Assembly: GCA_947384955.1 (NCBI GenBank)
Contig: CANDJC010000042.1
Location: 1 to 36,803 of the forward strand
Direction of reading: 5' to 3'
Length of the DNA stretch: 36,803 bases
Source: an uncultured Eubacterium sp.
Lineage (GTDB): Bacteria; Bacillota; Clostridia; Lachnospirales; Lachnospiraceae
In this document: positions 2,263-28,023 of the stretch, one piece after another
How positions within the stretch are numbered: position 1 is the stretch's first letter
Layout: each line of letters starts with the position of its first letter
Program-made: the position numbers and the translations under genes
Notes under the pieces: generated by a model
The model's database searches: none
What the model was told of the DNA's origin: nothing
The model's input: the letters and a program-made list of their open reading frames with translations, nothing else

Positions 2263-4086
2263 ATGAAGAACGAAAAAAACGGCAGGAAGAAAAAAGGAAA
2301 AGTTCTGATGGTTGCATCAGTAGCTTCTATGATTGACCAGTTTAATATCCCCAATATCCGTCTTTTGATTTCGCTGGGATATCAGCCGGATGTAGCTTGT
2401 AACTTTCAAAAAGGCAGTACCTGCAGCGATGAAAAAATAAGAGGGCTGCTGGAACTTTTGGAAAATCTGCATGTGGACTGTTACCAGATAGATTTTGAAC
2501 GCAGCCCTTTTAACTTGAACGCAGCTGTCAGGGCATTTAGGCAGCTGGACAGGGTGCTGGAAGGAAATGCGCGGACAGTTCATGGAAAACGCTGGCATAA
2601 GGACAGGGAGCCGTACTGCTTTATCCATGCCCACAGTCCGGTGGGAGGTGCAATCGGCAGAATTGCAGCAAAGCGCAGGCATACAGCAAGCATATATACC
2701 GCGCATGGATTTCATTTTTACCGCGGAGCTCCGCTGAAAAACTGGCTTTTGTATTATCCGGCGGAGCTGGCATTAAGCTGTATTACCGATGTCCTGATAA
2801 CCATTAACAGAGAAGATTATAAAAGGGCAAAACAGAAGCTGCATGCAAAAAAAACCATTTATATTCCAGGTGTCGGGGCAGATACTGGAAAATTTTCAAT
2901 GATAAAAAGGAAACCGGAGGAAAAACGAAGGGAGCTTGGATTGCAAAAAGACGGCCTTCTGCTGCTTTCAGCAGGAGAGCTGAATGAAAATAAGAACCAT
3001 GCAGCTGTTATCCGTGCCCTGGCATTGCTGAAAGAGGAACCTTTTTTTTCACATATGCAGTATATGATCTGCGGTAAAGGGACACCTTCCAAAGAGCAAG
3101 AGCTGGAGAAGCTGGCGAAAGGGCTTGGCATATCCAGTCATGTCTGTTTTCTGGGATTTCGGGAGGATATGACGGACATATATGGATGCGCGGATATTTT
3201 CATACTGCCGTCCAAACGGGAAGGACTGCCGGCAGCGCTGATGGAAGCAATGGCAGCGGGGCTTCCGGTTATCTGTTCGGATATCCGTGGAAATACAGAC
3301 CTTGTAAAAAATAATGTGCATGGTTTTGTATGCACCATGGAAGAAAGGGAAACGGCGGGCCTGATAAAAAGACTGGCATGTGATGAGCAGCTGAGAAAGC
3401 AGCTTGGAGCGAATGCGGCCTGGGATATCCGAAGGTTTGATATTTCCAGGGTCAGTGCATCCATGAAAGAATTATATGAAAAAATGAAAGGGGGGGGGTA
3501 TTGCAGGACGGCAGCGCTGGCAGAACGAATGATTGTCAGAAAAAAGTATGGAATTTCAAAAGATGCGTTTGTCCTGCTTTCAGCAGGAGAGTTAAATGAA
3601 AATAAAAATCATGGCACAGTTATTCAGGCTGTAGCAGAACTGAGAAACAGCCATATCTGCTATATGATTTGCGGTCAGGGAAACCGCAGAATGGAATATG
3701 AAAAGCAGATTCGGGAAAAAAAGATGGAAGGTGTGGTGATTCTGGCCGGTTATCAGAAAGAAATGGCTGCATATTATCATGCATCAGACGCATTTGTGCT
3801 GCCATCCAAAAGGGAAGGTCTTGGAATGGCAGCATTAGAAGCCATGCTGGCCGGACTGCCGCTGATTTCATCCGATTCCGGGGGCATTACAGATTATTCG
3901 AAGGATGGGGTGACTGGGATTGTGATTAAAAATGGCAGCGGGAAGAAAGCGTATGCGGACGCAGCCGTAAGGATTCAGGATAAACGGAAGTGGAAGCTGT
4001 ATTCAGACAATGCCGCAGCCAGGGCGCTGGATTTTGGAAAAAGCGTGACGCAGCAGACCATGAGGAGAGTATATAAAGGATTTTAA
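2263..4086 (+). CDS. GT4 glycosyltransferase with a duplicated C-terminal donor-binding half
   Basis: A 607-residue cytoplasmic GT-B enzyme of family GT4. Residues ~13-405 are a complete enzyme: an acceptor-side Rossmann half (HAHSPVGG, YTAHGFHF) and a donor-side half with GELNENKNH at ~237 and the E-x7-E loop PSKREGLPAALMEAMAAG at ~317-334. Residues ~413-607 repeat only the donor half: GELNENKNH again at ~442 and PSKREGLGMAALEAMLAG at ~514-531. The two halves are joined by Gly-Gly-Gly encoded by a nine-G tract (codons 410-412). Usual GT4 proteins are 350-420 residues, so the extra ~195 residues are an internal duplication. Loss or gain of one G would leave the first enzyme complete and remove the repeat. 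The ATG lies 8 bases after a GAAGGAAAG-type site. The sugar is unknown. Confidence 0.85.
   Translation: MKNEKNGRKKKGKVLMVASVASMIDQFNIPNIRLLISLGYQPDVACNFQKGSTCSDEKIRGLLELLENLHVDCYQIDFERSPFNLNAAVRAFRQLDRVLEGNARTVHGKRWHKDREPYCFIHAHSPVGGAIGRIAAKRRHTASIYTAHGFHFYRGAPLKNWLLYYPAELALSCITDVLITINREDYKRAKQKLHAKKTIYIPGVGADTGKFSMIKRKPEEKRRELGLQKDGLLLLSAGELNENKNHAAVIRALALLKEEPFFSHMQYMICGKGTPSKEQELEKLAKGLGISSHVCFLGFREDMTDIYGCADIFILPSKREGLPAALMEAMAAGLPVICSDIRGNTDLVKNNVHGFVCTMEERETAGLIKRLACDEQLRKQLGANAAWDIRRFDISRVSASMKELYEKMKGGGYCRTAALAERMIVRKKYGISKDAFVLLSAGELNENKNHGTVIQAVAELRNSHICYMICGQGNRRMEYEKQIREKKMEGVVILAGYQKEMAAYYHASDAFVLPSKREGLGMAALEAMLAGLPLISSDSGGITDYSKDGVTGIVIKNGSGKKAYADAAVRIQDKRKWKLYSDNAAARALDFGKSVTQQTMRRVYKGF
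3490..3498 (+). repeat. Poly-G tract (G9) 1, in the inter-domain linker of the tandem GT4
   Basis: Nine consecutive G on the coding strand, codon phase 1, encoding GGG at residues 410-412. With eight G the frame meets TGA at 3530-3532; with ten G it meets TGA at 3597-3599. Both would give a protein of about 425-445 residues holding the whole first GT4 module but not the duplicated half. Slippage would therefore switch between two protein forms, not on and off. That it slips in vivo is inferred from length and composition. Confidence 0.75.
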
Positions 4087-4088
4087 GC

Positions 4089-4898
4089 ATGAAAGACAGA
4101 CCGTTAGTAAGTGTCATTATGGGTGTATATAACTGTGAAGAAACCGTGCGTGCCAGCATCGAATCTATTATCAGGCAGAGCTATGAAAACTGGGAATTTA
4201 TTATCTGTGACGACTGTTCTGAAGATGCCACCTATGACATATGCAGAGAGTATGCACGCAAAGACAAACGCTTTATAATATTGAGAAACAGGCAGAACAG
4301 AAAGCTGGCAGCAGCATTGAACAGATGTCTTGCAAGGGCACAGGGAAAATACATAGCCAGAATGGATGCGGATGATATCAGCCTGCCAAAGCGTCTGGAA
4401 AGGGAAGTAAGTTTTTTGGAAAAGCATCCGCAAATCGATGCGGCAGGCTGCTGCTGTTATATCACTGACGGAAAGGAAATTATTTCAAAGCGCAGATATA
4501 AAGAGCATCCGCAAAAAAAAGACCTGCTGTTTCGTCCGCCGTTTGCGCATCCGGCCATCTGTGTGAAAAAAGAAGTATATGACAGCCTGCAGGGCTATAC
4601 GAAGGATAAAAAAATAGTCCGTGCGCAGGATTTGGAATTCTGGTTCCGGTTTTATGAAAATGGATTTACGGGATATAATTTGCAGGAATATCTGTTTCAG
4701 TACCGGGAATCGTTTTCTGATTATAAAAAAAGAAGCCTGAAAACAGGAGTGCAGACAGCAAAGGTTTTTTTGGAAGGCTATAAGCGGCTGCATGTTCCGT
4801 GGTGTTTATATCCTCTTGCATGTAAGCCTGTGTTATCGGCGCTTCTGCCGGACAGGCTTTTATACTGGTTTCATAATGGAGGGGAATATGCCAGGTAA
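4089..4898 (+). CDS. GT2 family glycosyltransferase
   Basis: A 269-residue GT-A enzyme. The N-terminal nucleotide-binding signature VSVIMGVYNCEETVRASIES is at residues 7-26, the acidic pair CDDCSEDAT follows at ~40, and the metal-binding DxD is in ARMDADDISLP at ~91-101. An EFWFRFYENG segment near residue 188 matches the catalytic-base region of capsule GT2 enzymes. There is no membrane helix; it should act on an undecaprenyl-linked acceptor at the inner face of the membrane. It begins 2 bases after the tandem GT4 stop, so translation is probably coupled. Donor and linkage cannot be told from sequence. Confidence 0.85.
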   Translation: MKDRPLVSVIMGVYNCEETVRASIESIIRQSYENWEFIICDDCSEDATYDICREYARKDKRFIILRNRQNRKLAAALNRCLARAQGKYIARMDADDISLPKRLEREVSFLEKHPQIDAAGCCCYITDGKEIISKRRYKEHPQKKDLLFRPPFAHPAICVKKEVYDSLQGYTKDKKIVRAQDLEFWFRFYENGFTGYNLQEYLFQYRESFSDYKKRSLKTGVQTAKVFLEGYKRLHVPWCLYPLACKPVLSALLPDRLLYWFHNGGEYAR

Positions 4899-4928
4899 AT
4901 GTGCAAAGGAAGATTCAGGGAGAGCATA

Positions 4929-5816
4929 ATGAATGTTATTGTCAGGATAAAGGGCGGCATGGGAAACCAGATGTTCGAATATGCGTGTGCGAGAGCAATA
5001 CAGATAAGGCATCAGGGAGATGCTGTCATTCTTGATTTGGCGGAAATGGAAAATGAAAGGAATGGGCGAAAATACGCCCTGGATGCTTTTCGAATTCCAA
5101 AAAGTGTCCATATTTTGAAAACACATAGATATGATAAATATTCCAGAAAGGAAAATCCGTTTCTGCGTATTGGGCAGAAACTATATCCTGAAATGATATA
5201 CCGGGCATATGCAAAGAATAATATATTTATATGGGATAATGATGAATATAAAAAATTAAAAGCAGATAATGCAGGGGATATTTACCTGAATGGGTACTGG
5301 CAGAGCAGCAGGTATTTTTCCGATGTCAGCCGTCAGATACTGTCTGACTTTACTTTTATTACGAAATTAAATAAAGAACAGGAAGTGAAAAAGCGGAAGA
5401 TATCAGGTTCACAAAGTGTCTGTGTCCATATTCGTTTAGGTGATTATTTAAACACTGCGAATTATCTGGTGCGGGGGGGGGTATGCACAAGGGAATATTA
5501 TATAAAGGGAATGAAAATAATCAAAAATAAAATTCCTGATGCTGAGTTTCATATATTTTCTGATGATATGGCTGCGGCTTTTGAAATGCTTTCTGGACAG
5601 AATGATATGGATATGGTTTTTGAAGGAAGCAATTCAGAAAAAGCGGATTTGGAACTGATGTCATGCTGCAGGCATTTTGTTATTTCTAACAGTACGTTTA
5701 GCTGGTGGGCACAGTATTTGTCAAAAAATAAGGCTAAAATAGTATGTGCTCCTTCAAGATGGAAAAATGGCCAGAAAGTGGAATCTATTTATGAAAAGAA
5801 CTGGATTCTTATATAA
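4929..5816 (+). CDS. GT11-type alpha-1,2-fucosyltransferase, carrying a poly-G tract
   Basis: A 295-residue protein of the GT11 family, which moves L-fucose from GDP-fucose onto galactose or a similar acceptor. It starts with the family N-terminus (VIVRIKGGMGNQMFEYACARA), has the HxRxGDY donor motif as HIRLGDY at ~167-173, and the late motif SNSTFSWWAQYL at ~252-263. I chose ATG 4929 because GGGAGAG lies 4-5 bases upstream and the family starts there; ATG 4899 has no ribosome site. gmd follows at once and fcl lies at 11,148, so the donor is made by the same operon. A nine-G tract at codons 182-185 lies after the first motif, so frameshift would remove the last third of the enzyme including the SNSTFSWW region. 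Confidence 0.88.
   Translation: MNVIVRIKGGMGNQMFEYACARAIQIRHQGDAVILDLAEMENERNGRKYALDAFRIPKSVHILKTHRYDKYSRKENPFLRIGQKLYPEMIYRAYAKNNIFIWDNDEYKKLKADNAGDIYLNGYWQSSRYFSDVSRQILSDFTFITKLNKEQEVKKRKISGSQSVCVHIRLGDYLNTANYLVRGGVCTREYYIKGMKIIKNKIPDAEFHIFSDDMAAAFEMLSGQNDMDMVFEGSNSEKADLELMSCCRHFVISNSTFSWWAQYLSKNKAKIVCAPSRWKNGQKVESIYEKNWILI
5473..5481 (+). repeat. Poly-G tract (G9) 2, inside the GT11 fucosyltransferase
   Basis: Nine G on the coding strand, codon phase 2, encoding R-G-G-V. Eight G leads to TAA at 5503-5505; ten G leads to TAA at 5528-5530. Either product stops near residue 190-200 and lacks the C-terminal catalytic motifs, so the gene would be off. It is on in this sequence. Phase variation is an inference. 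Confidence 0.75.
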
Positions 5817-5858
5817 TATATGATTTTGACGGATAATTGGAAGGATAAAAGGGTTTGT

Positions 5859-6947
5859 ATGAAAAAAGCATTGATAACCGGGGTGACGGGCCAGGATGGT
5901 TCTTTTCTGGCTGAGTTTTTACTGGAAAAGGGATATGAAGTTCATGGAATCATAAGGAGGGCTTCCGTAGATTTTCGTGAGCGCATTATGCATTTAGAAG
6001 GACTGGAAAATTTTCATCTGCATTACGGTGATTTGTCTGATTCTATGAGCATGATTCAGGTAATAGGTGCTGTACGTCCGGACGAATTATATAATCTTGC
6101 AGCTCAAAGCCATGTGCAGGTAAGCTTTGATATGCCGGAATTTACGGCAGATGTAGATGCGGTTGGTGTTTTACGGGTACTGGAGGCTGTACGTGCCTGC
6201 GGTCTGGCAGATGTCTGCCGGATTTACCAGGCTTCGACATCGGAGCTGTTTGGAAAGGTTGAGGAAGTACCACAGTCAGAGACAACACCGTTTCATCCCT
6301 ACAGTCCCTATGCGGCAGCAAAGCAGTATGGCTTTTGGATTGTGAAAGAGTATCGGGAAGCGTATGGGATGTTTGCATGTTCCGGAATTTTGTTTAATCA
6401 TGAATCAGAGAGACGGGGAGAAACATTTGTTACAAGGAAAATTACACTTGCAGCCAGCCGCATTGCTCAGAAGAAGCAGGAAAAACTGTTTCTAGGCAAT
6501 CTATCTTCCAGACGCGACTGGGGATATGCAAAAGATTATGTGGAATGCATGTGGCTGATGCTGCAAAATGATAAACCACAGGATTTTGTGATAGCAACCG
6601 GAATCCAGCACAGTGTCCGTGAATTCTGTATGCTGGCTTTTCATTATGCAGGAATAGAGCTGGAATTTAAAGGCAGCGGCATAGACGAAAAGGGATATGA
6701 TAAATCATCAGGACGTGTTCTGGTAGAAGTGGCGGAAGATTTTTACCGGCCTACAGATGTTGTGAATCTTTTGGGGAATCCGGCAAAAGCGAAAGCACAG
6801 CTGGGCTGGAACCCGCAAAAAACTTCTTTTGAAGAACTGGTTAAAAAAATGGTTGTGCATGATATGAAGCGGGCTGCGCAAGAGAGAATGCAGGAACAAA
6901 TCAGGACAAACCTGGCCGAATATCTGGAAAAAGGAGTTGTAAAATAA
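5859..6947 (+). CDS. gmd: GDP-mannose 4,6-dehydratase
   Basis: A 362-residue NAD(P)-dependent short-chain dehydratase that turns GDP-D-mannose into GDP-4-keto-6-deoxymannose, the first step to GDP-L-fucose. The signs are the Rossmann loop GVTGQDGSF at residues 8-16, the catalytic STSELFG segment, the Y-x3-K pair in [11 protein letters not shown], and the family-specific [18 protein letters not shown] start at ATG 5859 ([14 protein letters not shown]), which matches the family and has AAAGGG upstream; ATG 5820 only adds a non-conserved leader. It sits between the fucosyltransferase and a GT4; its partner fcl is ~4.2 kb downstream. The length is normal for the family. Confidence 0.95.
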
Positions 6948-6976
6948 ATCTCTGGGCGCAGAATGAGGTTATTACC

Positions 6977-8170
6977 ATGAAAAAAGAAATAGCAGTATCT
7001 GCTTTAGGCGTTAAAAAGAAAAAAATAATTTTTACAGTTTCTACTTATTATCCGAAAAAAGACGGAGTGCAGTTTGTTACCGAATATTTAGCAGAAGGAC
7101 TGGCTGCTAGGGAATATGATGTAACAGTTATTACACAAAGTATAGATGGTGTTTCAGATGAGGAATGGCATAAAGGCGTGCATATCATAAGATTTCATAT
7201 CTATACAAAGCATGCTCTGCATTACGGTGATATTGAAAAATACAAAAAATATGTACTGAAAATATCGAAGCATGCGGATATTTTAGTAAATGTATGCATG
7301 CAGTGTGCGGCTACTGATTCAATACTTCCGTTGCTTAAAAAAATATCATGCAGAAAAATATTATATATGCATGGGATGTACCGGTTTCAGTGGAAAAAAG
7401 AAGATTTTGCATCTGCAAAAGAATCCGCACATAGAGTATGGAATTCCATTCTATGGGGAAGATTGTACCAGATGCATGGAGGGGATATCAGGCAGTACGA
7501 TAAAATCATTCAGATTCATCGGTTTGACGGGGCGTATGACTTCATAAAAAGAAGATACGGGATAGAAAGCATCGTGATTGAAAATGCCTGTGATGAGCAT
7601 TTTTTTGGAGAAACACAAAAAAACATATATGGTATAGATTCGCCATACTGCATTTGTGTTGCAAATTACTTAAGAATCAAAAACCAGATTTTTTCCATGA
7701 GAGCATTTTATCAGACAAAAGAAATGAAAGATTATGGCCTTATTTATATTGGAAGTGAGAAAAATGAATATTATTCCAAAATGTGCAGAGAAAAGGAAAC
7801 GCTGGAAAAGAAATATGGAAAAAGAAATGTGCAGTTCCTGACCAAAGTTGCGAGAAGTGATATTCCAGACTGGGTCAGGGGAGCTTCTATCTATCTTTTG
7901 AGCAGTATCAGCGAGGTTTTTCCGGTTTCGCTTATCGAAAGCATGGCTGCGGGAGTACCGTTTATAGCAACGGATGCTGGTGTTGCGAGGTTTCTGCCAG
8001 GCGGGGTAACAGTCCGTTCTGAAAGGGAGATGTCATACTGGCTGGCGCTGTTAGCTGAAAATAAAAAATGCAGGGATTCTTTAGGAACAGCCGGCAGAGA
8101 ATATGCCAGCTGTAATTTTAATATTACATCAAAAATTGAACAGCTGAAAAAAATGATAGAGGAATTATAA
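6977..8170 (+). CDS. GT4-like glycosyltransferase
   Basis: A 397-residue GT-B enzyme. The N-terminal half has the GT4 opening (IIFTVSTYYPKKDGVQFVTE) and MHGMYRFQW near residue 132. The C-terminal half has the E-x7-E region as SSISEVFPVSLIESMAAGVPFIATD at ~310-335, where the loop is shortened relative to the classic EGFGLPLLEAMA but keeps both acidic residues. The central region is AT-rich. It is preceded by a 29-base gap after gmd and followed by the Wzy-like polymerase. Cytoplasmic, acting on a lipid-linked acceptor; donor unknown. Confidence 0.8.
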   Translation: MKKEIAVSALGVKKKKIIFTVSTYYPKKDGVQFVTEYLAEGLAAREYDVTVITQSIDGVSDEEWHKGVHIIRFHIYTKHALHYGDIEKYKKYVLKISKHADILVNVCMQCAATDSILPLLKKISCRKILYMHGMYRFQWKKEDFASAKESAHRVWNSILWGRLYQMHGGDIRQYDKIIQIHRFDGAYDFIKRRYGIESIVIENACDEHFFGETQKNIYGIDSPYCICVANYLRIKNQIFSMRAFYQTKEMKDYGLIYIGSEKNEYYSKMCREKETLEKKYGKRNVQFLTKVARSDIPDWVRGASIYLLSSISEVFPVSLIESMAAGVPFIATDAGVARFLPGGVTVRSEREMSYWLALLAENKKCRDSLGTAGREYASCNFNITSKIEQLKKMIEEL

Positions 8171-8179
8171 AGCAGAAGT

Positions 8180-9549: not shown

Positions 9550-11115
9550 TTGGATAAGTGGTTTAACAAAAATTCCAAAATTAGAAACAGGGAATGGGTC
9601 ACTGTGTTTGTGTTAAGTGAAGCAGCTGTTTTTTTTGCGTATTCTTTATTTTTGAACCAGACGTATAACTGCGACCAGATTGCAGCGGCATTTACTGATA
9701 ATACAGATGGTTTTTTGCAGACATTGAAAAATTATACGCTGGGAGGAAGGCCTGTATCGATAATACGGATTTATATTGACCGGCTTTTTGCTTTATCTGG
9801 CGTTCATTATCTTCATCATCAGGGTGTTATGCAGGCATTTACGATGTTTCTGCTGGGAATGGATGCAGTGCTGCTTTATTTTATTATAAGAAACTATACA
9901 GCGGGTGAAAATTATAAGCAGATAGCAGCATTATGTGTACTGACAGGATTTATCAATCCGTTTTTTGTGGAGTGTTTTAGCTTTTATGGGCCTGATCATG
10001 CACTTGCTGTTATGCTGGCTATTGCAGGAATTTATTTTTTTGTAAAAGATAAGTACGGAATGTCTGTCCTGTTTGTTTTTCTTTCAATATCCTGGTATCA
10101 GTCTTATTATAGCTTCTTTATTATTTATGTGTGTGTCTGCATATACCTGAAGACAAGAGGCAGGATTTCATCTGCAATATTTAAAAAATATTTAACAGCC
10201 TGTTTTATTACAGCAGCGGCAGTCATATGTAATCTGTCCTGTGTGAAGATTACAGCATGGATATTCGGACAGTCAGAGGCAAAGCCTGCCGGGCTTCCCT
10301 TTACACTGTCAGCTTTTTTAGAGAAAATAAATCAGATTTCAGACAGCTATGAATTTGTTTGGAAAAATGGATATGGATTTTTGCCGGACTATTTTGTAAT
10401 GACGCTGGCGGTTCTTTTTGGTGCTGCTGCAATTTTATCAAAGCTATTACAAAAAGACTATTCCGGATTATTCTGGATGGTTCTGCTAAGTATATGCGTT
10501 TTTATAGCGCCAGCGGCATATGGCGTGATTATGATTTCATTTTATTATCCGCCAAGGGCGGCTGTTCCGTTTTTTATGGCGTTAGGGGGATATTTTCTGA
10601 TAACAGGTTTTGAAATTATTCAGTGGGAAAAATTGTGCATGATGCCGAAACATATTTTGAAGGCAGCAGTTATGGTGCTCCTGTCTTTCTATCTTATGGT
10701 AACGGTGCATCAGATACAGCTTGGAATTGCTGATATTCTGATTGCGAATCGCATTGAAATACAGACATGCAGGGATGTGGACAAGCTCATTAAAAAGTAT
10801 GAACAGGAGAGCCGGAATAAGATTAAAGCGATTAAAGTATCGCATCATTCAGGTGCAATGCTTGCATTTGATTACAATTATCTGAATATCCGGTATGAGG
10901 GATATCCAAGTGTGGCTACTGTTTTAAATGCAGAATGGGCAGATGTTGTGATGCTGAATTATGTAACAGGAGAAAATTATAGAAAAGAAAGCATTACACG
11001 CGAGGAAGAACTGGAATATTTTGGAAATTATGATAAAAATACAGCGCTGCGTTCTTTTGATCCGGACACCCAGCTGGTATTTAAGGGAAACACGCTCTAC
11101 TGGATGCTTTATTAA
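9550..11115 (+). CDS. GtrII-like membrane glucosyltransferase (GT-C type)
   Basis: A 521-residue protein with roughly ten membrane helices in the first ~400 residues and a soluble outer-face domain at ~410-521. The first loop holds CDQIAAAFTDNTDGFLQTL and GGRPVSIIRIYIDRLF, the acidic/arginine-rich loop layout of the GtrII family, which transfers glucose from undecaprenyl-phosphate-glucose onto a finished glycan outside the membrane. A GtrB-type enzyme that could make that lipid donor is at 16,495-17,457 in the same operon. The start codon is TTG at 9550, with AAAGGA ~10 bases upstream; no upstream in-frame ATG exists. The next gene overlaps its stop region closely. The exact sugar is unknown. 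Confidence 0.65.
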   Translation: MDKWFNKNSKIRNREWVTVFVLSEAAVFFAYSLFLNQTYNCDQIAAAFTDNTDGFLQTLKNYTLGGRPVSIIRIYIDRLFALSGVHYLHHQGVMQAFTMFLLGMDAVLLYFIIRNYTAGENYKQIAALCVLTGFINPFFVECFSFYGPDHALAVMLAIAGIYFFVKDKYGMSVLFVFLSISWYQSYYSFFIIYVCVCIYLKTRGRISSAIFKKYLTACFITAAAVICNLSCVKITAWIFGQSEAKPAGLPFTLSAFLEKINQISDSYEFVWKNGYGFLPDYFVMTLAVLFGAAAILSKLLQKDYSGLFWMVLLSICVFIAPAAYGVIMISFYYPPRAAVPFFMALGGYFLITGFEIIQWEKLCMMPKHILKAAVMVLLSFYLMVTVHQIQLGIADILIANRIEIQTCRDVDKLIKKYEQESRNKIKAIKVSHHSGAMLAFDYNYLNIRYEGYPSVATVLNAEWADVVMLNYVTGENYRKESITREEELEYFGNYDKNTALRSFDPDTQLVFKGNTLYWMLY

Positions 11116-11147
11116 TGGCTGCAGATTTCAGGGAGGACAGATTTGTT

Positions 11148-12083
11148 ATGGAAAAGGAATCAAAAATATATGTTTCAGGACACCGGGGCATGGCAGGCTC
11201 GGCCATTGTAAGGGAACTGAAAAAGCAGGGATATTCCAATCTTGTAACACGGACACATGAGCAGCTGGATTTAACCAGACAGAATGATGTAGAAGAATTT
11301 TTTATGTCAGAAAGGCCGGAGTATGTGTTTCATGCGGCAGGAAAAGTAGGCGGAATTATAGCGAATGAAACATTTCCAGCAGATTTTCTATATGAAAATA
11401 TGATGATGGGAATGAATATTATACATGCATCCTTCAGAAACGGATGCAAAAAGCTGGAATTTCTTGGTTCGTCCTGCATATACCCGCGCATGGCGGCGCA
11501 GCCAATAAAAGAAAAGGAGCTTCTTTCTTCAGAGCTGGAAAAGACAAATGAGGCTTATGCCCTTGCAAAGATAAGCAGCCTGAAGTATTGCGAGTATCTG
11601 AACCGGCAGTATCATACAGATTTTATATCCCTGATGCCTGCTAATCTTTATGGCCCTAACGATAATTATAATCCGCAAAAAAGCCATGTTCTTCCGGCAA
11701 TGCTGCGCAGATTTCATGAAGCAAAAATAAATGGAAGCAAGTCTGTTACCTGCTGGGGAGACGGAAGTGCGCTGCGTGAATTTCTGTATGTCGGCGACCT
11801 TGCAGAATTATGTGTATTTCTTATGAATCATTACAGCGGAAATGAAACAGTCAATGCTGGAACCGGGAAAGAAGTGACAATTAAAGAGCTGGCACAGCTT
11901 GCCGCCAAAACAGCAGGCTATCAGGGTGAAATATTATGGGATTATACAAAGCCGAATGGTACGCCGCGAAAGCTTTTGGATGTATCAAAGGCGGCCAGTC
12001 TGGGCTGGGTTTATAAGACCGAATTAGAAGACGGGATTCAGGCTGCATATGAAGATTTTTTAAAAAATCATGCCGTCGGGTAA
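11148..12083 (+). CDS. fcl: GDP-L-fucose synthase (epimerase/reductase)
   Basis: A 311-residue short-chain dehydrogenase that completes GDP-L-fucose from the Gmd product by 3,5-epimerisation and NADPH reduction. Visible signs: Rossmann loop YVSGHRGMAGSA near the N-terminus, FLGSSCIYPR (catalytic Ser/Cys region), Y-x3-K in YALAKISSLKYCEYL, and MPANLYGPNDNYNPQKSHVLPA, which is specific to this family. ATG 11,148 is chosen because GGGAGG lies ~11 bases upstream; ATG 11,115 only adds a leader. With gmd and the GT11 transferase it forms a complete fucose donor-plus-transfer route inside one operon. Confidence 0.95.
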   Translation: MEKESKIYVSGHRGMAGSAIVRELKKQGYSNLVTRTHEQLDLTRQNDVEEFFMSERPEYVFHAAGKVGGIIANETFPADFLYENMMMGMNIIHASFRNGCKKLEFLGSSCIYPRMAAQPIKEKELLSSELEKTNEAYALAKISSLKYCEYLNRQYHTDFISLMPANLYGPNDNYNPQKSHVLPAMLRRFHEAKINGSKSVTCWGDGSALREFLYVGDLAELCVFLMNHYSGNETVNAGTGKEVTIKELAQLAAKTAGYQGEILWDYTKPNGTPRKLLDVSKAASLGWVYKTELEDGIQAAYEDFLKNHAVG

Positions 12084-13949: not shown

Positions 13950-13982
13950 TGGGATGCAGCCGGAATATGAATGGAGAAAATC

Positions 13983-14855
13983 ATGATAGAAGAAAAACTC
14001 TGGAAAATGATGATGTGTCTGGAGAAGTCTTATGCCGGACGGCTTGGGGTAAAACTGCTTTACGGCTGCGGAGCCGTATATATATGGAATGAACTGCAAT
14101 ATAAAAAGGATGCAGGAAATCCTGTAAAGGATATGCTGGATGCCAGAGACTATTTTAAGAAAAATAAAAGAAGAATCGGGCAGGTAGTGGACATGCTTGC
14201 GGATGAAAAGTCAAAGCAGGCATATTTGTCAGCTATTGAATACAGAAAAACCCATGACAGAAGGGACAGGCCGCAATACAGCCGGAAAGACCAGTATTTT
14301 CCAAAGGATATTGTAAAATTGTCTTCCAAAGAAGTGTTTATAGACTGCGGAGCATATAACGGAGATACAATAGCTGCATTTCAAAAGAATTCCAAAAACA
14401 GGTACCGGAGGATTGTAGCGTTTGAGCCGGATAAGGAAAATGCCCAAAGGATAAGGAAAACTTTTCCGGGGGGGGGTAAAATTGTTATCAAATGTACTGG
14501 TGTATGGAGCGAAGGCGGGACATTATTGTTTGCAGATGGAATGGGCAGCAGCAGTCATATAGCGGAAGAAGGGAAAAAAATAAAAGCCGCAGCGATTGAT
14601 GAAATCAGGGAATGCAGGGATGCGACATTTATAAAAATGGATATTGAGGGAAGTGAATATGAAGCGCTTCTCGGAGCAGAAAAAACAATAAAAAGAAACT
14701 GTCCGAAACTGGCTGTCTGTATTTATCACAGCCATGAAGATATGATACGGATTCCCGAGCTGATAGGCGCATGGAATCTTGATTATGATTATTTTGTACG
14801 TCACCATGCACAGAAAACTTCTGAAACAGTATTTTACTGTATTCCCAAACAGTAA
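13983..14855 (+). CDS. FkbM-family SAM methyltransferase 1, carrying a poly-G tract
   Basis: A ~290-residue protein with an N-terminal helical region and a C-terminal FkbM methyltransferase domain. SAM motif I is VFIDCGAYNGDTIAAF, the acidic ribose-binding strand is IVAFEPDKENAQ, and the family end motif is FIKMDIEGSEYEALLGA. FkbM proteins O-methylate sugars or related hydroxyls; here the likely substrate is a sugar of the surface glycan. ATG 13,983 has GGAG six bases upstream; ATG 13,971 is possible and adds four residues. A nine-G tract follows the FEPD strand by about 15 residues, encoding part of P-G-G-G-K. Frameshift would delete the DIEGSE half of the fold. The methylated position is unknown. 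Confidence 0.85.
   Translation: MIEEKLWKMMMCLEKSYAGRLGVKLLYGCGAVYIWNELQYKKDAGNPVKDMLDARDYFKKNKRRIGQVVDMLADEKSKQAYLSAIEYRKTHDRRDRPQYSRKDQYFPKDIVKLSSKEVFIDCGAYNGDTIAAFQKNSKNRYRRIVAFEPDKENAQRIRKTFPGGGKIVIKCTGVWSEGGTLLFADGMGSSSHIAEEGKKIKAAAIDEIRECRDATFIKMDIEGSEYEALLGAEKTIKRNCPKLAVCIYHSHEDMIRIPELIGAWNLDYDYFVRHHAQKTSETVFYCIPKQ
14468..14476 (+). repeat. Poly-G tract (G9) 3, inside FkbM methyltransferase 1
   Basis: Nine G on the coding strand, codon phase 3, encoding the end of Pro and Gly-Gly-Gly. Ten G puts TAA immediately after the tract (14,477-14,479); eight G reaches TAG at 14,560-14,562. Both remove the C-terminal part of the methyltransferase fold, so the gene would be off. It is on here. 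Phase variation is an inference. Confidence 0.75.
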
Positions 14856-16498: not shown

Positions 16499-17457
16499 AA
16501 GAAAAACACGTTGAAATCATTGTGCCCTGTTATAACGAACAGGAATGCATCAGGCCATTATATCATGAATTATACAAGGTATTTGAAGGAATGGAAAACG
16601 TCATGTTTTCTGTTTTTTTTATTGATGATGGCAGCAGTGACACGACACTGGATGAAATACGGGGGCTGGCCGCAGAATTCGGCAGCCATGTTATCCGTTA
16701 TATCTCTTTTGCCAGAAATTTTGGGAAAGAAGCGGCTATTTATGCCGGTTTAAAGAACTGCAGGGGGGATTATATTGTTTTGATGGACGCTGACCTGCAG
16801 CATCCGCCCGGACTGCTTGCGGATATGCTTGCAGAAATGGAAAAAGGACATGACTGCTGCGGGGCGAGGAGGGTAACGAGAAAAGGCGAGCCAATGTTCC
16901 GAAGCCTGTTTTCCAGAATGTTTTATACCGTTATCAACCGTATTACATCCATGAAGCTGGTGCCGGGCGGCTCGGATTTTCGAATGATGACAAAGCAGAT
17001 GGCGGATGCGGCGGTTTCCCTTACCGAACGGGAGCGGTTTACGAAAGGAATTTTGTCATGGGTTGGATTTGATACGGTATGGATTGGATATGAAAATGTA
17101 AAGAGGGCTGCCGGTGAAACGAAATGGTCATTTTTCGGGCTCGCAAGGTATGCGTGGAGCGGGTTTTTATCTTTTGCGACGGCTCCGCTGCGTGCAGCTG
17201 TATATTTTGGAATGGTAATTGTTTTGGCTGATTTTTTATATGCAGCCTGGATATTTATCGGAGCCCTTTCTGGAAACAGTCCAAGGACAGGGTATGCTTC
17301 CATGATTATCCTGATACTGTTTCTGGGCGGGGTTATTATTACAATACTGGGAATTATTGGTGAGTATCTGGCCAGGATTTATATAGAGCTCAAGCACCGG
17401 CCGGTTTATATTTCGAAGGAGTCGAATGTGACGCTGGATAAAATGAATGAAAAATGA
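16495..17457 (+). CDS. GtrB-like undecaprenyl-phosphate glycosyltransferase (GT2)
   Basis: A 320-residue GT2 protein of the DPM1/GtrB/ArnC class. The catalytic domain shows EIIVPCYNEQECIRPLYHEL at the N-terminus, DDGSSDTT, SFARNFGKEAAIYAGL and the DxD-type strand LMDADLQHPP. GGSDFRMM and RERFTKGILSWVGF follow, then two C-terminal membrane helices at ~235-300 and a short basic tail. These enzymes load a sugar, usually glucose, from the nucleotide donor onto undecaprenyl phosphate. The GtrII-like GT-C enzyme upstream could use the product. The usual third member, the small GtrA flippase, was not found. Translation is coupled to the flippase by a four-base overlap. Confidence 0.85.
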   Translation: MKEKHVEIIVPCYNEQECIRPLYHELYKVFEGMENVMFSVFFIDDGSSDTTLDEIRGLAAEFGSHVIRYISFARNFGKEAAIYAGLKNCRGDYIVLMDADLQHPPGLLADMLAEMEKGHDCCGARRVTRKGEPMFRSLFSRMFYTVINRITSMKLVPGGSDFRMMTKQMADAAVSLTERERFTKGILSWVGFDTVWIGYENVKRAAGETKWSFFGLARYAWSGFLSFATAPLRAAVYFGMVIVLADFLYAAWIFIGALSGNSPRTGYASMIILILFLGGVIITILGIIGEYLARIYIELKHRPVYISKESNVTLDKMNEK

Positions 17458-18556: not shown

Positions 18557-19396
18557 ATGGACATTTTAAAAATCGCAGGCAGGATATATGATAAAAACCC
18601 GGTAAGCTACCGTGTATTAAGGAACCTGAAGCAGAGCATGACAGCGGCTCATTTTTTTCTGGCAGCCGCGGTTCTTCCTGCCATACCTGTCTGGAATGTT
18701 CTGGCTTTGCTTGAGGTTAAAAAAATTCATGCGGGTGGCAGTATATACAAGGCAGGGCGGGAAACGCTGTTTTATCTGCCAAAGCTGGATTTAAAGGCAG
18801 GGGAATTTATTCAGAACCGGATTTTTCTGGAAGGGAACTATTTTGAGTGGAGGCGTCTGCTCCAGGCTCGAAAGTATATAAAAAAGAAAGGCGTTGTTTT
18901 GGATATTGGCGCCAATCTTGGAAATCATACACTGTTTTTTTTGAAAGAATGCGGCGCGGAAAGAGTATATGCGTTTGAACCGGTCAAAAGCACTTTTCAG
19001 ATTTTAAAAAAGAATATCTTCCTGAATCATCTGCAGGATAAGGCAGTTTTGTACAATACTGCGCTGGGCGAAAAAAGGTGTGGCGCAAGAGTGGTTTATA
19101 ATCCTGCTGATGCAGGGGGAAACCGTGTTGAAGCAGCCGGGGGGGGGTACGCAGATACGGTTATGTACAGACTGGATGATTTCAGGATTCCGGAACATAT
19201 TGATTTTATAAAAATAGATGTAGAAGGATATGAACAGATGGTTTTGCAGGGAGCTGGCGAAACATTGCGAAGGAATCGTCCGGTGATTATGATTGAAATT
19301 TTTGATGAAAATTATGGCAGGGTAAATGACTGTCTTTGTTCCATTGGATACCGATGCAGGATGAAGGTAGAAAATGATTATATTTATGCCATTTAA
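18557..19396 (+). CDS. FkbM-family SAM methyltransferase 2, carrying a poly-G tract
   Basis: A 279-residue FkbM methyltransferase, distinct in sequence from the one at 13,983. SAM motif I is VVLDIGANLGNHTLFFL near ~114-130, the acidic strand is RVYAFEPVKSTFQILKKNI, and the family end motif is HIDFIKIDVEGYEQMVLQGA near ~213-232. The N-terminal ~90 residues include a hydrophobic stretch (FFLAAAVLPAIPVWNVLALL) that may contact the membrane. AGGAG lies before the ATG. A nine-G tract at codons 195-197 encodes Gly-Gly-Gly just before the DVEG half. It probably methylates a different hydroxyl from its paralogue; that is inference. Confidence 0.85.
   Translation: MDILKIAGRIYDKNPVSYRVLRNLKQSMTAAHFFLAAAVLPAIPVWNVLALLEVKKIHAGGSIYKAGRETLFYLPKLDLKAGEFIQNRIFLEGNYFEWRRLLQARKYIKKKGVVLDIGANLGNHTLFFLKECGAERVYAFEPVKSTFQILKKNIFLNHLQDKAVLYNTALGEKRCGARVVYNPADAGGNRVEAAGGGYADTVMYRLDDFRIPEHIDFIKIDVEGYEQMVLQGAGETLRRNRPVIMIEIFDENYGRVNDCLCSIGYRCRMKVENDYIYAI
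19139..19147 (+). repeat. Poly-G tract (G9) 4, inside FkbM methyltransferase 2
   Basis: Nine G on the coding strand, codon phase 1, encoding Gly-Gly-Gly at residues 195-197. Eight G leads to TAA at 19,209-19,211; ten G leads to TGA at 19,177-19,179. Both lose the DVEGYE motif and the rest of the fold, so the gene would be off. It is on in this sequence. Phase variation is an inference. Confidence 0.75.
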
Positions 19397-23102: not shown

Positions 23103-23201
23103 ACCGTTATGCCGGGAGCAGTTCAGATTTAAAAGGGGATAGAAGAATATGGGAAAAAGAAAAGATATGGATTCCAAGTGTCTTTTTATGGAGGTACTGG
23201 C

Positions 23202-24227
23202 ATGAAAAGAATACTGGCAGCCGGAGGAGCCGGGTTTCTTGGCTCGCATCTTTGCAGGCGTCTTTTGGAAAATGGAGACAGGGTAATCTGTGCAGATAAC
23301 CTTTATACAGGGCGCATGTCAAATATACATGATTTGATGGACAGCGAAAAATTTACATTTGTAAACTGCAATATTATAAATTCAGAAGAAGTAAAAAAGC
23401 TGGATGAAGCAGGACCGATAGATGAGATATATAACCTGGCTTGTCCGGCAAGCCCGCCCCATTACCAGAAGTCACCCGTATATACGGTAAAAACATGTGT
23501 GCTTGGCACGATGAATCTGTTAGAGCTTGCTGTAAAAAACCATGCAAAAATCATGCAGTTTTCAACGAGTGAAGTATATGGCGACCCTTTTGTGCACCCG
23601 CAGGAGGAATCCTATCGGGGGAATGTAAATACGGTTGGAATCCGTTCCTGTTATGATGAAGGCAAGCGGTGTGCAGAAACTTTATGCTATGATTATGGCA
23701 GGGAATATGGGGCAAGGATTAAAATAATCCGTATTTTTAATACCTATGGGCCGATGATGGACCCGGCAGACGGGCGCGTGGTTTCCAATATGATTATGCA
23801 GGCCTTGAAGGGAGAGGACATTACCATATACGGAGATGGCAGCCAGACAAGGAGCTTTTGCTATGTGGATGACCTTATAGAAGGGATTGTACGTATGATG
23901 GCATCCAGGGACAGCTTTCATGGGCCGGTGAATCTGGGCAATCCTTGTGAATTCACAATCCGGGAGCTTGCAGAACTGATTTTAGAGCTGATTCCGACAT
24001 CTTCGCGGATTGTCTGTAAAGATTTGCCACAGGACGATCCGATGCAGAGAAAGCCGGATATATCGCTGGCACAGCAGCAGCTGGATGGATGGAGCCCGAA
24101 GATTTCTCTGCGGGATGGACTGGTGCCTGTGATTGCATATTTTAAAGAGACACTGGCGCAAAACCGTACCGGGACAGGAAAAACTATTTGCATGCGGACA
24201 ATACAGAATTCCACAGGGGGCGTATAA
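23202..24227 (+). CDS. uxs: UDP-glucuronate decarboxylase (UDP-xylose synthase)
   Basis: A 341-residue short-chain dehydrogenase. Family-specific strings are easy to read: AGGAGFLGSHLC at the N-terminus, YNLACPASPPHYQKSPVYTV, FSTSEVYGDPFVHPQEESYR, GNVNTVGIRSCYDEGKRCAE (Y-x3-K) and IIRIFNTYGPMM. It turns UDP-glucuronic acid into UDP-xylose or its 4-keto intermediate. No UDP-glucose dehydrogenase is in the window, so the UDP-glucuronate must come from elsewhere. ATG 23,202 is chosen for GGAGG eight bases upstream; ATG 23,178 has none. Alternative: a decarboxylase that releases UDP-4-keto-arabinose, in keeping with the ArnD and formyltransferase genes. Confidence 0.9.
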   Translation: MKRILAAGGAGFLGSHLCRRLLENGDRVICADNLYTGRMSNIHDLMDSEKFTFVNCNIINSEEVKKLDEAGPIDEIYNLACPASPPHYQKSPVYTVKTCVLGTMNLLELAVKNHAKIMQFSTSEVYGDPFVHPQEESYRGNVNTVGIRSCYDEGKRCAETLCYDYGREYGARIKIIRIFNTYGPMMDPADGRVVSNMIMQALKGEDITIYGDGSQTRSFCYVDDLIEGIVRMMASRDSFHGPVNLGNPCEFTIRELAELILELIPTSSRIVCKDLPQDDPMQRKPDISLAQQQLDGWSPKISLRDGLVPVIAYFKETLAQNRTGTGKTICMRTIQNSTGGV

Positions 24228-24228
24228 T

Positions 24229-24648
24229 ATGCAGGTGATTAAATATGTATTTCAGCCGCATGGGGATGACAGAGGACAGCTTATAGCGCTGGAAGAATTT
24301 AAAGACATACCATTTCAGATAAAACGTGTTTATTATATGTATGACACAGGAAAAAAAGTGACCAGGGGCTGTCACGCCCACAGGTCTTTGGAGCAGATTC
24401 TGATATGTATTCATGGAAGCTGCACGGTCAGGCTGGACGATGGAAAAGAGACAAAGACGGTACCTCTCGAAAGGCCCTATGAAGGATTATATGTATCTGG
24501 CAATATGTGGCGCGAGATGTATGGCTTTTCTGAAGATGCGGTGCTGATGGTGCTGGCTTCTGAATTATATGATGAGTCTGATTACATCAGGGATTATGAC
24601 GAGTTTTTAAAAATTGCAGAAAAAAACAGGGACGGGCGAAAAGGATGA
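24229..24648 (+). CDS. dTDP-4-keto-6-deoxyhexose 3,4-ketoisomerase (FdtA/QdtA-like)
   Basis: A 139-residue small cupin of the FdtA/QdtA/WxcM family. The markers are DDRGQLIALEEFKDIPFQIK near the N-terminus, RGCHAHRSLEQILICIHGSC with the catalytic His, VRLDDGK, and the late GLYVSGNMWREMYGFS and LASELYDESDYIRDYDEFL. It moves the keto group of dTDP-4-keto-6-deoxyglucose from C4 to C3, giving the aminotransferase its substrate. ATG 24,229 has AGGGGG ~8 bases upstream. It overlaps the GNAT gene by four bases (ATGA). Whether the product has fuco (FdtA) or gluco (QdtA) form cannot be told from the motifs I can see. Confidence 0.9.
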   Translation: MQVIKYVFQPHGDDRGQLIALEEFKDIPFQIKRVYYMYDTGKKVTRGCHAHRSLEQILICIHGSCTVRLDDGKETKTVPLERPYEGLYVSGNMWREMYGFSEDAVLMVLASELYDESDYIRDYDEFLKIAEKNRDGRKG

Positions 24649-25157
24649 GACTGAGAAAGCTATGTATGGAGGATGCACCATTGATGCTGGAATGGATGCA
24701 TATGGAAGATATAGCGGGATATTTTCAGACGGATTTCAGGTCAATGACAATCAAAGACTGTGAAAAGTTTATTATGAAAAGCGATACCAGCAGACATATT
24801 CATTATGCGGTTACTGACTGTATGGGAGAATATCTTGGGACAGTCAGCCTGAAGCATATTCAGAACCAGACGGCAGAATTTGCAATTGTGTTAAGAAAAA
24901 AGGCGATGGGGAGCGGATGTGCGGCAGAAGCAATGAAAGAGATTTTCAGGATAGGATTTTTAGACATGGACCTGCAGAGTATTTACTGGTATGTACTGCC
25001 GCAGAATCAAAGGGCTGTGAGGTTTTATGATAAAAATGGATGCCAGCGTGCTGACTGGCACAAAATAGAAAAGCTGCTTCGTGAAAATGCGGGGACAGAT
25101 ATGACAGCGGACAGGCGGTATTTATGGTATATGGAAAGCAGAATACACGAAGAATGA
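24645..25157 (+). CDS. GNAT-family sugar N-acetyltransferase
   Basis: A 170-residue GCN5-type acetyltransferase. The acetyl-CoA-binding loop is in LRKKAMGSGCAAEAMKEIFR near ~85-104, and the C-terminal IYWYVLPQNQRAVRFYDKNGC is the usual strand-helix end of the RimJ/RimL subgroup. Lying between the ketoisomerase and a flippase in the dTDP-amino-sugar segment, it probably acetylates the 3-amino group of dTDP-Fuc3N or dTDP-Qui3N (FdtC/QdtC role). It uses the GNAT fold, whereas many FdtC/QdtC enzymes are left-handed beta-helix proteins. It overlaps both neighbours by four bases. Confidence 0.8.
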   Translation: MRLRKLCMEDAPLMLEWMHMEDIAGYFQTDFRSMTIKDCEKFIMKSDTSRHIHYAVTDCMGEYLGTVSLKHIQNQTAEFAIVLRKKAMGSGCAAEAMKEIFRIGFLDMDLQSIYWYVLPQNQRAVRFYDKNGCQRADWHKIEKLLRENAGTDMTADRRYLWYMESRIHEE

Positions 25158-26566
25158 ATAAAACAAAGCTATTTGCAGAAAATTTTCTCGTTTATGGCCT
25201 GGGAGGGATTATCAGCAAAGTAATTCCGTTTGTCATGCTGCCTGTTATTGCAAGGCTGATGCCGGACACAGAGTATTTTGGAATCAGTGACCTGACAAAT
25301 ACGATGATATCTCTTTTTTCAGCGCTGGCAGTTATGGGAATGTATGATGCCATGTACCGGATGTTTTTTGAAAAAGATGATGCAGCGTATAAAAAAGATA
25401 TCTGCTCGACAGCGCTGGTGTTTACACTTATAACATCGGTGCTGGTTTTTGTTTTTATGATTCTGTTTCAAAAGCAGATTGCAGCCTGTTTTTTTGGCAG
25501 CAGTAAGTATGTATTTCTGGTCTGTATAGCCGCTGCTGCCACACTGGCAGGAGCTTCGAATTCGATTGTCTGTGCACCTTCACGCATGCAGAATAAGCGT
25601 AAGGTATTTCTTGTTACAAACACGCTTGCACCGGTTCTGTCTTATTCAGTTTCTGTCCCGCTGCTGCTGGCGGGGCACTATATGACTGCACTGTCAGCGG
25701 CGGCGCTTATATCAGGCATTCTGATGGAAATGGTTTTTCTGGCGCTTAACCGCCGCTGGTTTGACGTTACACGCTTTCGGGCAGATTATTTAAAGCAGAT
25801 GCTTGCGATAGCAGTCCCGATGCTTCCTAATTTTTTGATTTACTGGGTATTTCATTCCTGTGACAGGCTGATGATTACGCATTATCTGGGAGCAGGCGAA
25901 GCAGGAGTTTATTCGATTGGCTCAAAGCTTGGAAGTGCCAGCCAGCTGATATATACGGCATTTGCAGGAGGCTGGCAGTATTTTGCCTTTTCCACTATGA
26001 AAGAAGACAGTCAGGTGCAGACGAATGCCAGGATTTTTGAATATCTGGGAATGATTTCTTTTACATGCACAATGTTTGTCTGTGTGTGTTCACAACCGCT
26101 TTACCGGATATTGTTTACGGGAGATTACACAAGGGGTTATATTGCGGCGCCATACCTGTTTCTGGCTCCGCTGCTTCAAATGCTGTTTCAGGTGGCATGC
26201 AGCCAGTTTCTGGTTGTTAAAAAAACGTGGCCGAATCTGTTTATTCTGTCAGGGGGTGCAGCTGTGAATGTGGTGCTGAACCGGATTCTGATTCCTGTCA
26301 TTGGGATTGAGGGCGCTGCAGCAGCTACCCTGTGCGGGTATGTGGCAGCGGATGTGGCAGCAGTTTTTGTACTGTGCAGAATGAAGCTGATGATAATCCG
26401 AAGGCAGTTTTTAGCGGCAGTGTCCATTCTGGCAGGTTTTCTGGTATTCTGGAGATTTGCAGCGCTGCGGGAGACGGGAAAGGGCCTGGCAGGTGCAGCA
26501 GTCTGCACGGGAATTTTTCTGCTGTTGTATCGGAAAGATATTCTGGAATTTAAAAACAGGAGATAA
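25154..26566 (+). CDS. Wzx-like polysaccharide flippase 2
   Basis: A 470-residue MOP-superfamily protein with about twelve to fourteen helices. The N-terminus FLVYGLGGIISKVIPFVMLPVIARLMPD is the conserved first helix pair of the PST family. LPNFLIYWVFHSCDRLMITHYLGAGEAGVYSIGSK marks the seventh-helix region, with the charged Asp-Arg seen in Wzx proteins. It belongs to a different subgroup from the flippase at 14,888. The start is ATG 25,154, which overlaps the GNAT stop as ATGA; the ATG at 25,124 lies within the GNAT gene in another frame. Two flippases in one locus are unusual. Confidence 0.85.
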   Translation: MNKTKLFAENFLVYGLGGIISKVIPFVMLPVIARLMPDTEYFGISDLTNTMISLFSALAVMGMYDAMYRMFFEKDDAAYKKDICSTALVFTLITSVLVFVFMILFQKQIAACFFGSSKYVFLVCIAAAATLAGASNSIVCAPSRMQNKRKVFLVTNTLAPVLSYSVSVPLLLAGHYMTALSAAALISGILMEMVFLALNRRWFDVTRFRADYLKQMLAIAVPMLPNFLIYWVFHSCDRLMITHYLGAGEAGVYSIGSKLGSASQLIYTAFAGGWQYFAFSTMKEDSQVQTNARIFEYLGMISFTCTMFVCVCSQPLYRILFTGDYTRGYIAAPYLFLAPLLQMLFQVACSQFLVVKKTWPNLFILSGGAAVNVVLNRILIPVIGIEGAAAATLCGYVAADVAAVFVLCRMKLMIIRRQFLAAVSILAGFLVFWRFAALRETGKGLAGAAVCTGIFLLLYRKDILEFKNRR

Positions 26567-26571
26567 AGCTA

Positions 26572-28023
26572 ATGCTGTTCAATTCATTTACATACACAGC
26601 CTTTCTGCCAGCCGTATGCATTCTGCACTGGGCGCTGCCGCACAGATACCGCTGGATGCTGCTTCTGGCCGCAAGCTATTATTTTTACATGAACTGGAAT
26701 CCGGCTTATGCCGTCCTGATTCTGGTAACAACAGCCGTCTCTTACCTGGCTGCGGTTTTCATGGAAACGGCGGGAGAGCGGACAAAAAAAATCATTCTGT
26801 TTATTGCGTCGGCAGTCTGTTTTGGGATTTTATTTGTATTCAAATATTTTAATTTTGTGATGGATGCCGTCTGCGGAGGCCTGAGGCTGTTTTCTGTGAA
26901 TGCCAGCCCCCCTGTTCTGGACCTGCTTCTTCCGGTCGGAATCTCTTTTTATACTTTTCAGACAGCGGGTTATATCATAGATGTTTACCGGGGGGGGGTG
27001 AAAGCGGAGCGTCATTTTGGCTATTATGCCCTGTTTGTCTCGTTCTTTCCGCAGCTTGTGGCCGGGCCGGTGGAACGGGCAGAAAACCTGCTGCCGCAGC
27101 TGAAATCAGCAAAAAACTTTGATGAATCCAGGTTCATAAGCGGGCTAAAGGCCATGCTGTGGGGATATTACAAAAAGCTTGTGGTGGCTGATACGCTGGC
27201 TGTATATGTAAACCAGGTATACGGGAGTCTGGAAGATTACGAAGGGCCTGCGCTGGCAGCGGCGGTATTCTTTTTCTCGCTTCAGGTTTACTGTGATTTT
27301 TCGGGGTATTCGGATATTGCAATTGGGACGGCAGAGCTTTTCGGCATCCGCTTCCTGGATAATTTTGCGGCCCCGTATTTTGCGGTGTCCGTTCAGGAAT
27401 TCTGGAAACGGTGGCATATCTCGCTGTCTTCCTGGTTCCGGGATTACGTGTATATCCCGCTGGGCGGGAGCAGGTGCACTGTGGCGGTAAGATGCCGAAA
27501 TCTGCTCGTGACTTTCCTGGCAAGCGGCATCTGGCACGGGGCAGGATGGACATTTATGGCATGGGGTGCCCTGCACGGGCTTGCCCAGGCCGCGGAGGTG
27601 CTGATGCGGGGACCGCTGGAAAAGCTGCGGCGTTTGAAAGCCGGGAGATTTGTTATGCGGGCGGCAGTGTTCGGGTTCTGTACCGCGGCATGGGTCTTTT
27701 TCCGGGCGGACAGCCTGGGCGATGCATGGTATGTGCTGTCTCATATGTCAGATGGCATTGCTTCGCCTGTTTCCTATGTCCGCAGCGGGTGCATCAGCCT
27801 CGGGATTGATAAATTCAGGCTGATTTACCTTGCAGTCCTTATATTTATCCTGATGGCAGCAGATTATGGTTTATACCGGAATAAGGGGCACAAAACCGGG
27901 CGCATGGAGGCTCTTATGAAAAACCGGGCGGCTGAATGGGCGCTGTATGTTATGCTTGGCGTTCTGATAGTTTTGTTTTCCCAGAAAGGAGAGGCGGCTG
28001 AATTTATTTATTTTCAGTTCTGA
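26572..28023 (+). CDS. MBOAT-family O-acyltransferase, carrying a poly-G tract
   Basis: A 483-residue integral membrane protein of the MBOAT family (AlgI, PatA and DltB relatives), which passes an acyl group, usually acetyl, across the membrane for O-acylation of a surface glycan. Signs are LLLPVGISFYTFQTAGYIID with VSFFPQLVAGPVERAENLL, the channel motif FWKRWHISLSSWFRDYVYIP, GGSRCTVAVRCRNL, and the catalytic His in FLASGIWHGAGWTFMAWGAL near residue 324. A nine-G tract sits at codons 140-143 (R-G-G-V) in the loop before VSFFPQLVAGP. Frameshift removes both core motifs. The SGNH partner follows 14 bases downstream. Confidence 0.92.
   Translation: MLFNSFTYTAFLPAVCILHWALPHRYRWMLLLAASYYFYMNWNPAYAVLILVTTAVSYLAAVFMETAGERTKKIILFIASAVCFGILFVFKYFNFVMDAVCGGLRLFSVNASPPVLDLLLPVGISFYTFQTAGYIIDVYRGGVKAERHFGYYALFVSFFPQLVAGPVERAENLLPQLKSAKNFDESRFISGLKAMLWGYYKKLVVADTLAVYVNQVYGSLEDYEGPALAAAVFFFSLQVYCDFSGYSDIAIGTAELFGIRFLDNFAAPYFAVSVQEFWKRWHISLSSWFRDYVYIPLGGSRCTVAVRCRNLLVTFLASGIWHGAGWTFMAWGALHGLAQAAEVLMRGPLEKLRRLKAGRFVMRAAVFGFCTAAWVFFRADSLGDAWYVLSHMSDGIASPVSYVRSGCISLGIDKFRLIYLAVLIFILMAADYGLYRNKGHKTGRMEALMKNRAAEWALYVMLGVLIVLFSQKGEAAEFIYFQF
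26990..26998 (+). repeat. Poly-G tract (G9) 5, inside the MBOAT acyltransferase
   Basis: Nine G on the coding strand, codon phase 2, encoding R-G-G-V in the cytoplasmic loop. Eight G puts TGA directly after the tract (26,999-27,001); ten G reaches TGA at 27,120-27,122. Both lose the catalytic region, so the gene would be off. It is on here. The local protein context is normal for MBOAT proteins (DVYRG-x-[hydrophobic]-K), so the tract disturbs the protein little. Phase variation is an inference. Confidence 0.75.

Follow-up and report, generated by a model that had tools for sequence, protein, structure and literature searches.

Neisseria meningitidis, a pathogen with mismatch repair, carries phase-variable repeats of mixed types. 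In one of its genomes 115 genes are predicted to be phase-variable. Campylobacter jejuni has intragenic G runs (G8 to G12 in the assay used) in surface-glycan genes, with 12 to 29 tracts per genome (PMC4965091), and shows very high tract mutation rates while being devoid of mismatch repair (PMC4235727). In Bifidobacterium, a gut commensal, G-tracts in genes for sortase-dependent pili switch by slippage (PMC9187656). Here we describe poly-G tracts in a stretch of 36,803 nucleotides, referred to as the window, which is contig CANDJC010000042.1 of assembly GCA_947384955.1 from an uncultured Eubacterium sp. of the Lachnospiraceae. The window holds five genic runs of nine G (G9), and these are very probably poly-G contingency loci that undergo phase variation by slippage, within a set of 45 to 56 genic tracts in the same genome.

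The likeness to the poly-G/poly-C loci of C. jejuni consists of intragenic G runs, here in part in predicted surface-glycan genes, and a frameshift upon slipping. The two differ in that our genome has 45 to 56 genic tracts of at least nine, against 12 to 29 per C. jejuni genome (PMC4965091), in that it contains mutS and mutL, whereas C. jejuni is without mismatch repair (PMC4235727), and in that its tracts have an extended DNA context and lengths concentrated at nine. The pilus tracts of Bifidobacterium (PMC9187656) are likewise G-tract genes of a gut commensal, with switching being a prediction in our case, but their clusters number one or two per strain, as compared to tens of loci here, many of them in glycan-modifying families. 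As in the simple sequence repeat phasome of N. meningitidis, many genes per genome are predicted to be phase-variable, although our analysis covered G runs and the set is predicted from sequence. Among the matches listed from the open-licence PMC literature, no earlier description of poly-G switching in Lachnospiraceae was found.

Recounting the window confirmed that it has exactly five G9 runs, all on the plus strand and at the positions reported in a first-pass annotation (Table 1), no G7 or G8 and a single G6 (16763-16768), again as reported; C runs are six or shorter. In 300 first-order Markov sequences simulated from the window, runs of at least nine occurred at a mean of 0.34 (maximum 3), in agreement with the earlier estimate of well under one. 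Profile matches also agreed with the families assigned to the five genes, and the codon phases given as 1, 2, 3, 1 and 2 correspond to the 0, 1, 2, 0 and 1 of our recount. All five genes are in frame at their present G9. A change to 8 or to 10 G would bring every one of them to a stop 0 to 41 codons past the tract (0 to 42 in the first-pass annotation). In the mechanism that we propose, DNA polymerase would slip at the G run, one G more or less would shift the frame and truncate the enzyme, and a later slip would restore the frame. We infer replication slippage, length variation among cells of this species and a change of the surface glycan.

The tract of the tandem GT4 gene is located at codon 410, in the linker separating the two GT4 regions, and both slipped products keep the first region intact and lose the second. 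As a slip spares the first region and drops only the extra C-terminal domain, this tract may differ from a plain on/off switch, and it probably toggles between a tandem and a single form. For the MBOAT gene, none of the relatives among the matches listed (at most 50) had a G run longer than six at the tract site, and of the 83 loci with alignments spanning the tract, 76 were gap-free near it. The idea that G9 is a three-codon insertion is therefore not general; one tract gene elsewhere in the genome (C33:29426) was seen by eye to be one residue longer than two tract-free homologues.

Table 1. Tract genes, G9 tracts and neighbouring genes in the window, with predicted product lengths (amino acids) at 8, 9 and 10 G.
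Feature	Position	Strand	Match or 3' flank	8 G	9 G	10 G
Tandem GT4 gene	2263..4086	+	matches at residues 219-385 and 436-571 (second: Glycos_transf_1 domain)	422		445
G9 tract 1	3490..3498	+	3' flank TATTGC
GT11 (fucosyltransferase-type) gene with G9	4899..5816	+	PF01531, E 2e-36	201	305	210
G9 tract 2	5473..5481	+	3' flank TATGCA
GDP-mannose 4,6-dehydratase family gene (neighbour)	5820..6947	+	PF16363
NAD-dependent epimerase family gene (neighbour)	11115..12083	+	PF01370
FkbM methyltransferase 1 with G9	13971..14855	+	PF05050	196	294	169
G9 tract 3	14468..14476	+	3' flank TAAAAT
FkbM methyltransferase 2 with G9	18557..19396	+	PF05050	217	279	207
G9 tract 4	19139..19147	+	3' flank TACGCA
MBOAT O-acyltransferase with G9 at YRGxV motif	26572..28023	+	PF03062	142	483	183
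G9 tract 5	26990..26998	+	3' flank TGAAAG (without TA)

In the whole assembly (5.06 Mb; G000, with the window as its contig C42) we counted 116 G or C runs of at least nine, 75 of which lie at least 500 bp away from contig ends. By exact length there were 35 G8, 73 G9 and 43 runs of at least ten, so that length 8 forms a trough. A mechanical rule placed 56 of the tracts in genes, and 45 when at least 30 codons were required on both sides. Runs of at least nine were present in all 12 other genomes of the genus as well, with 3 to 97 each. In a sample of 397 genomes of the family, only three of them from the genus, 253 had any such run and five had at least 30 (G187 126, our genome 116, G411 40, G102 33 and G148 31). 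Because our genome and its genus relatives carry many such runs, we gave up the local reading: the proposal of five genes in a single glycan locus does not hold as framed, and the tracts belong to a set that spans the genome and the genus. Genome G187, from another genus of the family (1.6 Mb, 68% complete), had the highest count of the sample, and eleven runs of at least eight were seen across three of its stretches. In G025 (Lachnospiraceae, isolate Lapin-012) about 26 kb (C6:106000-136000; L320, L321) hold ten G runs with lengths of 9 to 12.

The 116 runs cannot all be regarded as switches, since 44 belong to one dispersed repeat family and several are poly-G at contig starts. These 44 cluster by their downstream sequence, with the G run at the edge of the repeat, and the repeat core (at most two mismatches) was found within 110 bp in 38 of them, compared to 15 of the 116 upstream stretches. 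By eye, from a consensus of 16 sequences, the repeat is about 270 bp long and imperfectly palindromic, with G9 to G12 at its 5' edge; examples are L223 (C12:7332), L227 (C20:15466), L228 (C21:37151) and L231 (C25:24679). An Rfam scan of these four loci (class B) gave no family on the repeat. A profile scan of 41 in-frame tract proteins matched 6 to glycosyltransferase (one under the cut-off), 10 to methyltransferase (3 FkbM), 3 to acyltransferase and 2 to capsule-type families, and 10 of the 41 were without any match; from the out-of-frame tract genes, 5 of 15 were scanned, as pieces. G9 tracts were also seen in genes for a PRD antiterminator, an AraC-type regulator and two solute-binding proteins (L206, C48:21123; L212, C67:2861; L215, C70:2352; L219, C83:3717), and thus regulators and uptake may switch too.

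Reading frames were taken from whichever open stretch was longest on either side of the tract, independent of homology, and the counts of the relatives are non-random samples because their regions were picked mainly where tracts cluster. In our genome 39 of 47 genic G9 tracts were in frame, compared to 2 of 9 longer ones. The corresponding numbers at G9 and at other lengths were 19/21 and 0/3 in G003, 14/18 and 0/4 in G004, and 9/15 and 3/15 in G002. Beyond these four genomes the pattern was less clear, with 7/8 and 1/1 in G187 and the values of G025 and G033 given below. The tract length needed for an open frame was divisible by three in 38 of 45 genes of our genome (p 2e-12 versus one third), in 19/22 of G003, 17/21 of G004, 15/25 of G002 and 7/9 of G187, and in 5/13 of both G025 and G033 and 1/14 of G007. 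As most tract genes of our genome are in frame at G9, the default state is likely ON in most cells, and OFF cells would be rarer. An assembly bias against variable tracts could contribute to this in-frame excess.

Differences in length were found at three matching sites of G002 and G004, with 10/8, 12/8 and 10/8 G and flanks that were 77-90% identical. In the regions that were fetched, no other pairs from different genomes aligned on both sides of the tract, and none of the three corresponds to a site of the window; a paralogous pair inside G004 had equal lengths (9/9). We also identified frameshifted alleles, at sites outside the window. At C23:8903 of our genome (G11) one Acyl_transf_3 match is split across the tract in different frames, with profile positions 2-181 before it (32.4 bits, cut-off 31) and 207-320 after it (28.0 bits, below the cut-off), and a methyltransferase of G007 with G8 (L290) aligns in two frames to C33:29426 of our genome. 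The gene at C4:18081, also with G11, has a layout like that of the tandem GT4 gene and two parts in different frames. The relatives' length differences, the frameshifted alleles and, in four species of the genus, the mostly out-of-frame genes at lengths other than nine thus back the slippage switching proposed in the first-pass annotation, and what falls away from its phase-variation system is the framing as five genes in one locus.

The dinucleotide TA directly follows 36 of the 56 genic tracts in our genome, compared to 4-6.5% of coding G2 to G5 runs, and does so in all three codon phases. It was also found 3' of the tract in G004 (17/22), G002 (19/30), G007 (12/17), G025 (10/14), G033 (8/14), G187 (5/9) and G003 (8/24). 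Coding G6 and G7 runs were too few for this comparison, with TA after 3 of 7 in the regions of our genome. Exposure of a stop does not explain the TA, as the most common trinucleotide 3' of our tracts, TAT, is not a stop and TA is present in all phases. That TA is a trait of any G9 run was not supported by a cyanobacterium (2/24), which is a weak control because many of its runs appear intergenic; a Campylobacter phage comparator, with two tracts of at least eight and TA after neither, was uninformative.

Around 132 tracts from G000, G002, G003 and G004, AT content had maxima near -17, -8, +2 and +10 and minima near -13, -2, +7 and +14, a periodicity of about 9 bp (p 0.002 on each side, the floor of 500 shifts that kept the codon phase). 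The main AT peaks were visible in every codon phase taken alone and the pattern was absent from coding G3, G4 and G5 runs, and T and A were preferred at synonymous positions near the tracts. The contrast with G3 to G5 and the synonymous preference are partly circular, because the AT/GC template had itself emerged from the pooled data. In the classifiers and the cross-species synonymous test that follow, training and test species differed. Using bases more than 4 bp away from the tract and matched control positions in the same genes, the classifier reached an area under the curve (AUC) of 0.70 in G000, 0.76 in G002 and 0.77 in G004, and was weaker in G003 (0.62, p 0.025). It gave no separation in G007 (0.43), G025 (0.60), G033 (0.53) and G187 (0.51), where power was low with 17, 14, 14 and 9 tracts, respectively; for G025 and G033, p was 0.009 and 0.012 with unmatched controls and 0.09 and 0.34 with matched ones. 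A profile from three species predicted the AT bias that synonymous positions show in the genes of our genome (p 8e-7), and the prediction also worked in reverse (p 3e-6), with positions -1, +1 and +2 left out. The extended context is a DNA-level constraint in four species, beyond what slippage alone explains.

Matches to mutS1 and mutL exceeded the cut-off in 12 of the 13 genus genomes, with both genes split in G001 and with G007 (96% complete) as the exception. The runs of G007 comprise 24 G8, 1 G9 and 2 longer ones, the strongest shift towards G8; 20 of its 24 G8 tracts were fetched, and the tract-gene and context data of this genome refer to the 17 genic ones among them. Of 14 frames in G007, six need 8 G, seven need 7 or 10 and one needs 9. 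The gene miaA and the five next genes are ordered as in our genome and G010, but on this contig 5.9 kb of sequence upstream of miaA contain neither mutS nor mutL. In that place, where our genome and G010 have mutS-mutL, G007 (C44; L372 1-5900) has other open reading frames, some by eye sugar oxidoreductase-like and nucleotidyltransferase-like. The shift agrees in direction with the mutation rates in C. jejuni (PMC4235727). With one species, a tie between loss of mutSL and G8-peaked tracts is suggestive and short of proof.

If G9-TA and the periodic flanks made up a fixed recognition site, for binding or uptake or of a Chi-like kind, in genes that are not switched, this would account for the exact length of nine in 47 of 56 genic tracts, for the TA and for a context that extends over three codon phases and synonymous sites. 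We nevertheless consider it unlikely, as matching sites differ in length, frameshifted alleles occur and the tracts of G007 are almost all G8. The different DNA lengths at matching sites argue also against a programmed slippage of transcription or translation at G9, which would give two products from unchanged DNA and with which the constant length and mostly in-frame state of our tracts would agree; this explanation seems to us highly improbable. We give some, but minor, weight to the possibility that the tracts are programmed hypermutation sites, in which a protein would bind a helically phased site of about 40 bp around G9 (AT-rich at -17, -8, +2 and +10, GC-rich at -13, -2, +7 and +14, with TA directly 3') and drive slippage or hide the loops from mismatch repair. 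In G007, which is without mutS and mutL, the tracts are shorter and no extended context was detected (17 tracts), which fits a context that serves repair evasion.

Errors at G runs in sequencing or assembly could be suspected from the 29-51 G at some contig starts, possibly Illumina poly-G artefacts, and from the frequent breaks of Illumina contigs at tracts (PMC4235727). The five runs of the window are internal and in frame, however, runs are present in all 12 other genus genomes and the context is common to the tracts of four species, and an artefact is thus extremely improbable. We give practically no credence to chance or to selection for glycine. The tracts do encode glycine-rich stretches, for example at the MBOAT YRGxV motif, where many relatives have one glycine, but they lie in three codon phases, T and A are preferred at synonymous positions, G9 exceeds G8 in our genome and only 0.34 runs were expected in the window.

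Slippage phase variation remains our preferred explanation, and several observations weigh against it. The length of the genic tracts in our genome is strikingly constant at nine, the extended context is something that slippage alone would not need, and PCR slippage in a C. jejuni study was without flank effect (PMC4965091). In G025, 4/6 tracts at G9 and 5/8 at other lengths were in frame, and in G033 4/8 and 4/6. Of the tract proteins scanned, only about half belong to glycan-type families. Two flank-pattern scans for DNA of the same species in viral contigs found none, and assembled G-run lengths may be erroneous (PMC9187656; PMC4235727). Finally, G8 exceeds G9 also in G001 (14/12), G006 (5/1) and G012 (15/7), among whose G8 runs two in G001 were looked at; as both repair models were matched in these genomes, the link between mutSL and G8 drawn from G007 is weakened.

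Ten further genes of the window were scanned and include, besides the two neighbours in Table 1, a UDP-GlcNAc 2-epimerase, GtrII, GT2, FdtA and a DegT aminotransferase; one had a Wzz match under the cut-off and two had no match. The epimerase family gene in Table 1 may be a GDP-fucose synthase. A partial tRNA at 36749-36803 is interrupted by the window end.

Both the DNA context and the genome that lacks mutS and mutL give starting points for testing what determines tract length. If the switching is confirmed, the genus would comprise some species with tens of poly-G genes, glycan enzymes included, and its surface diversity would be partly stochastic.

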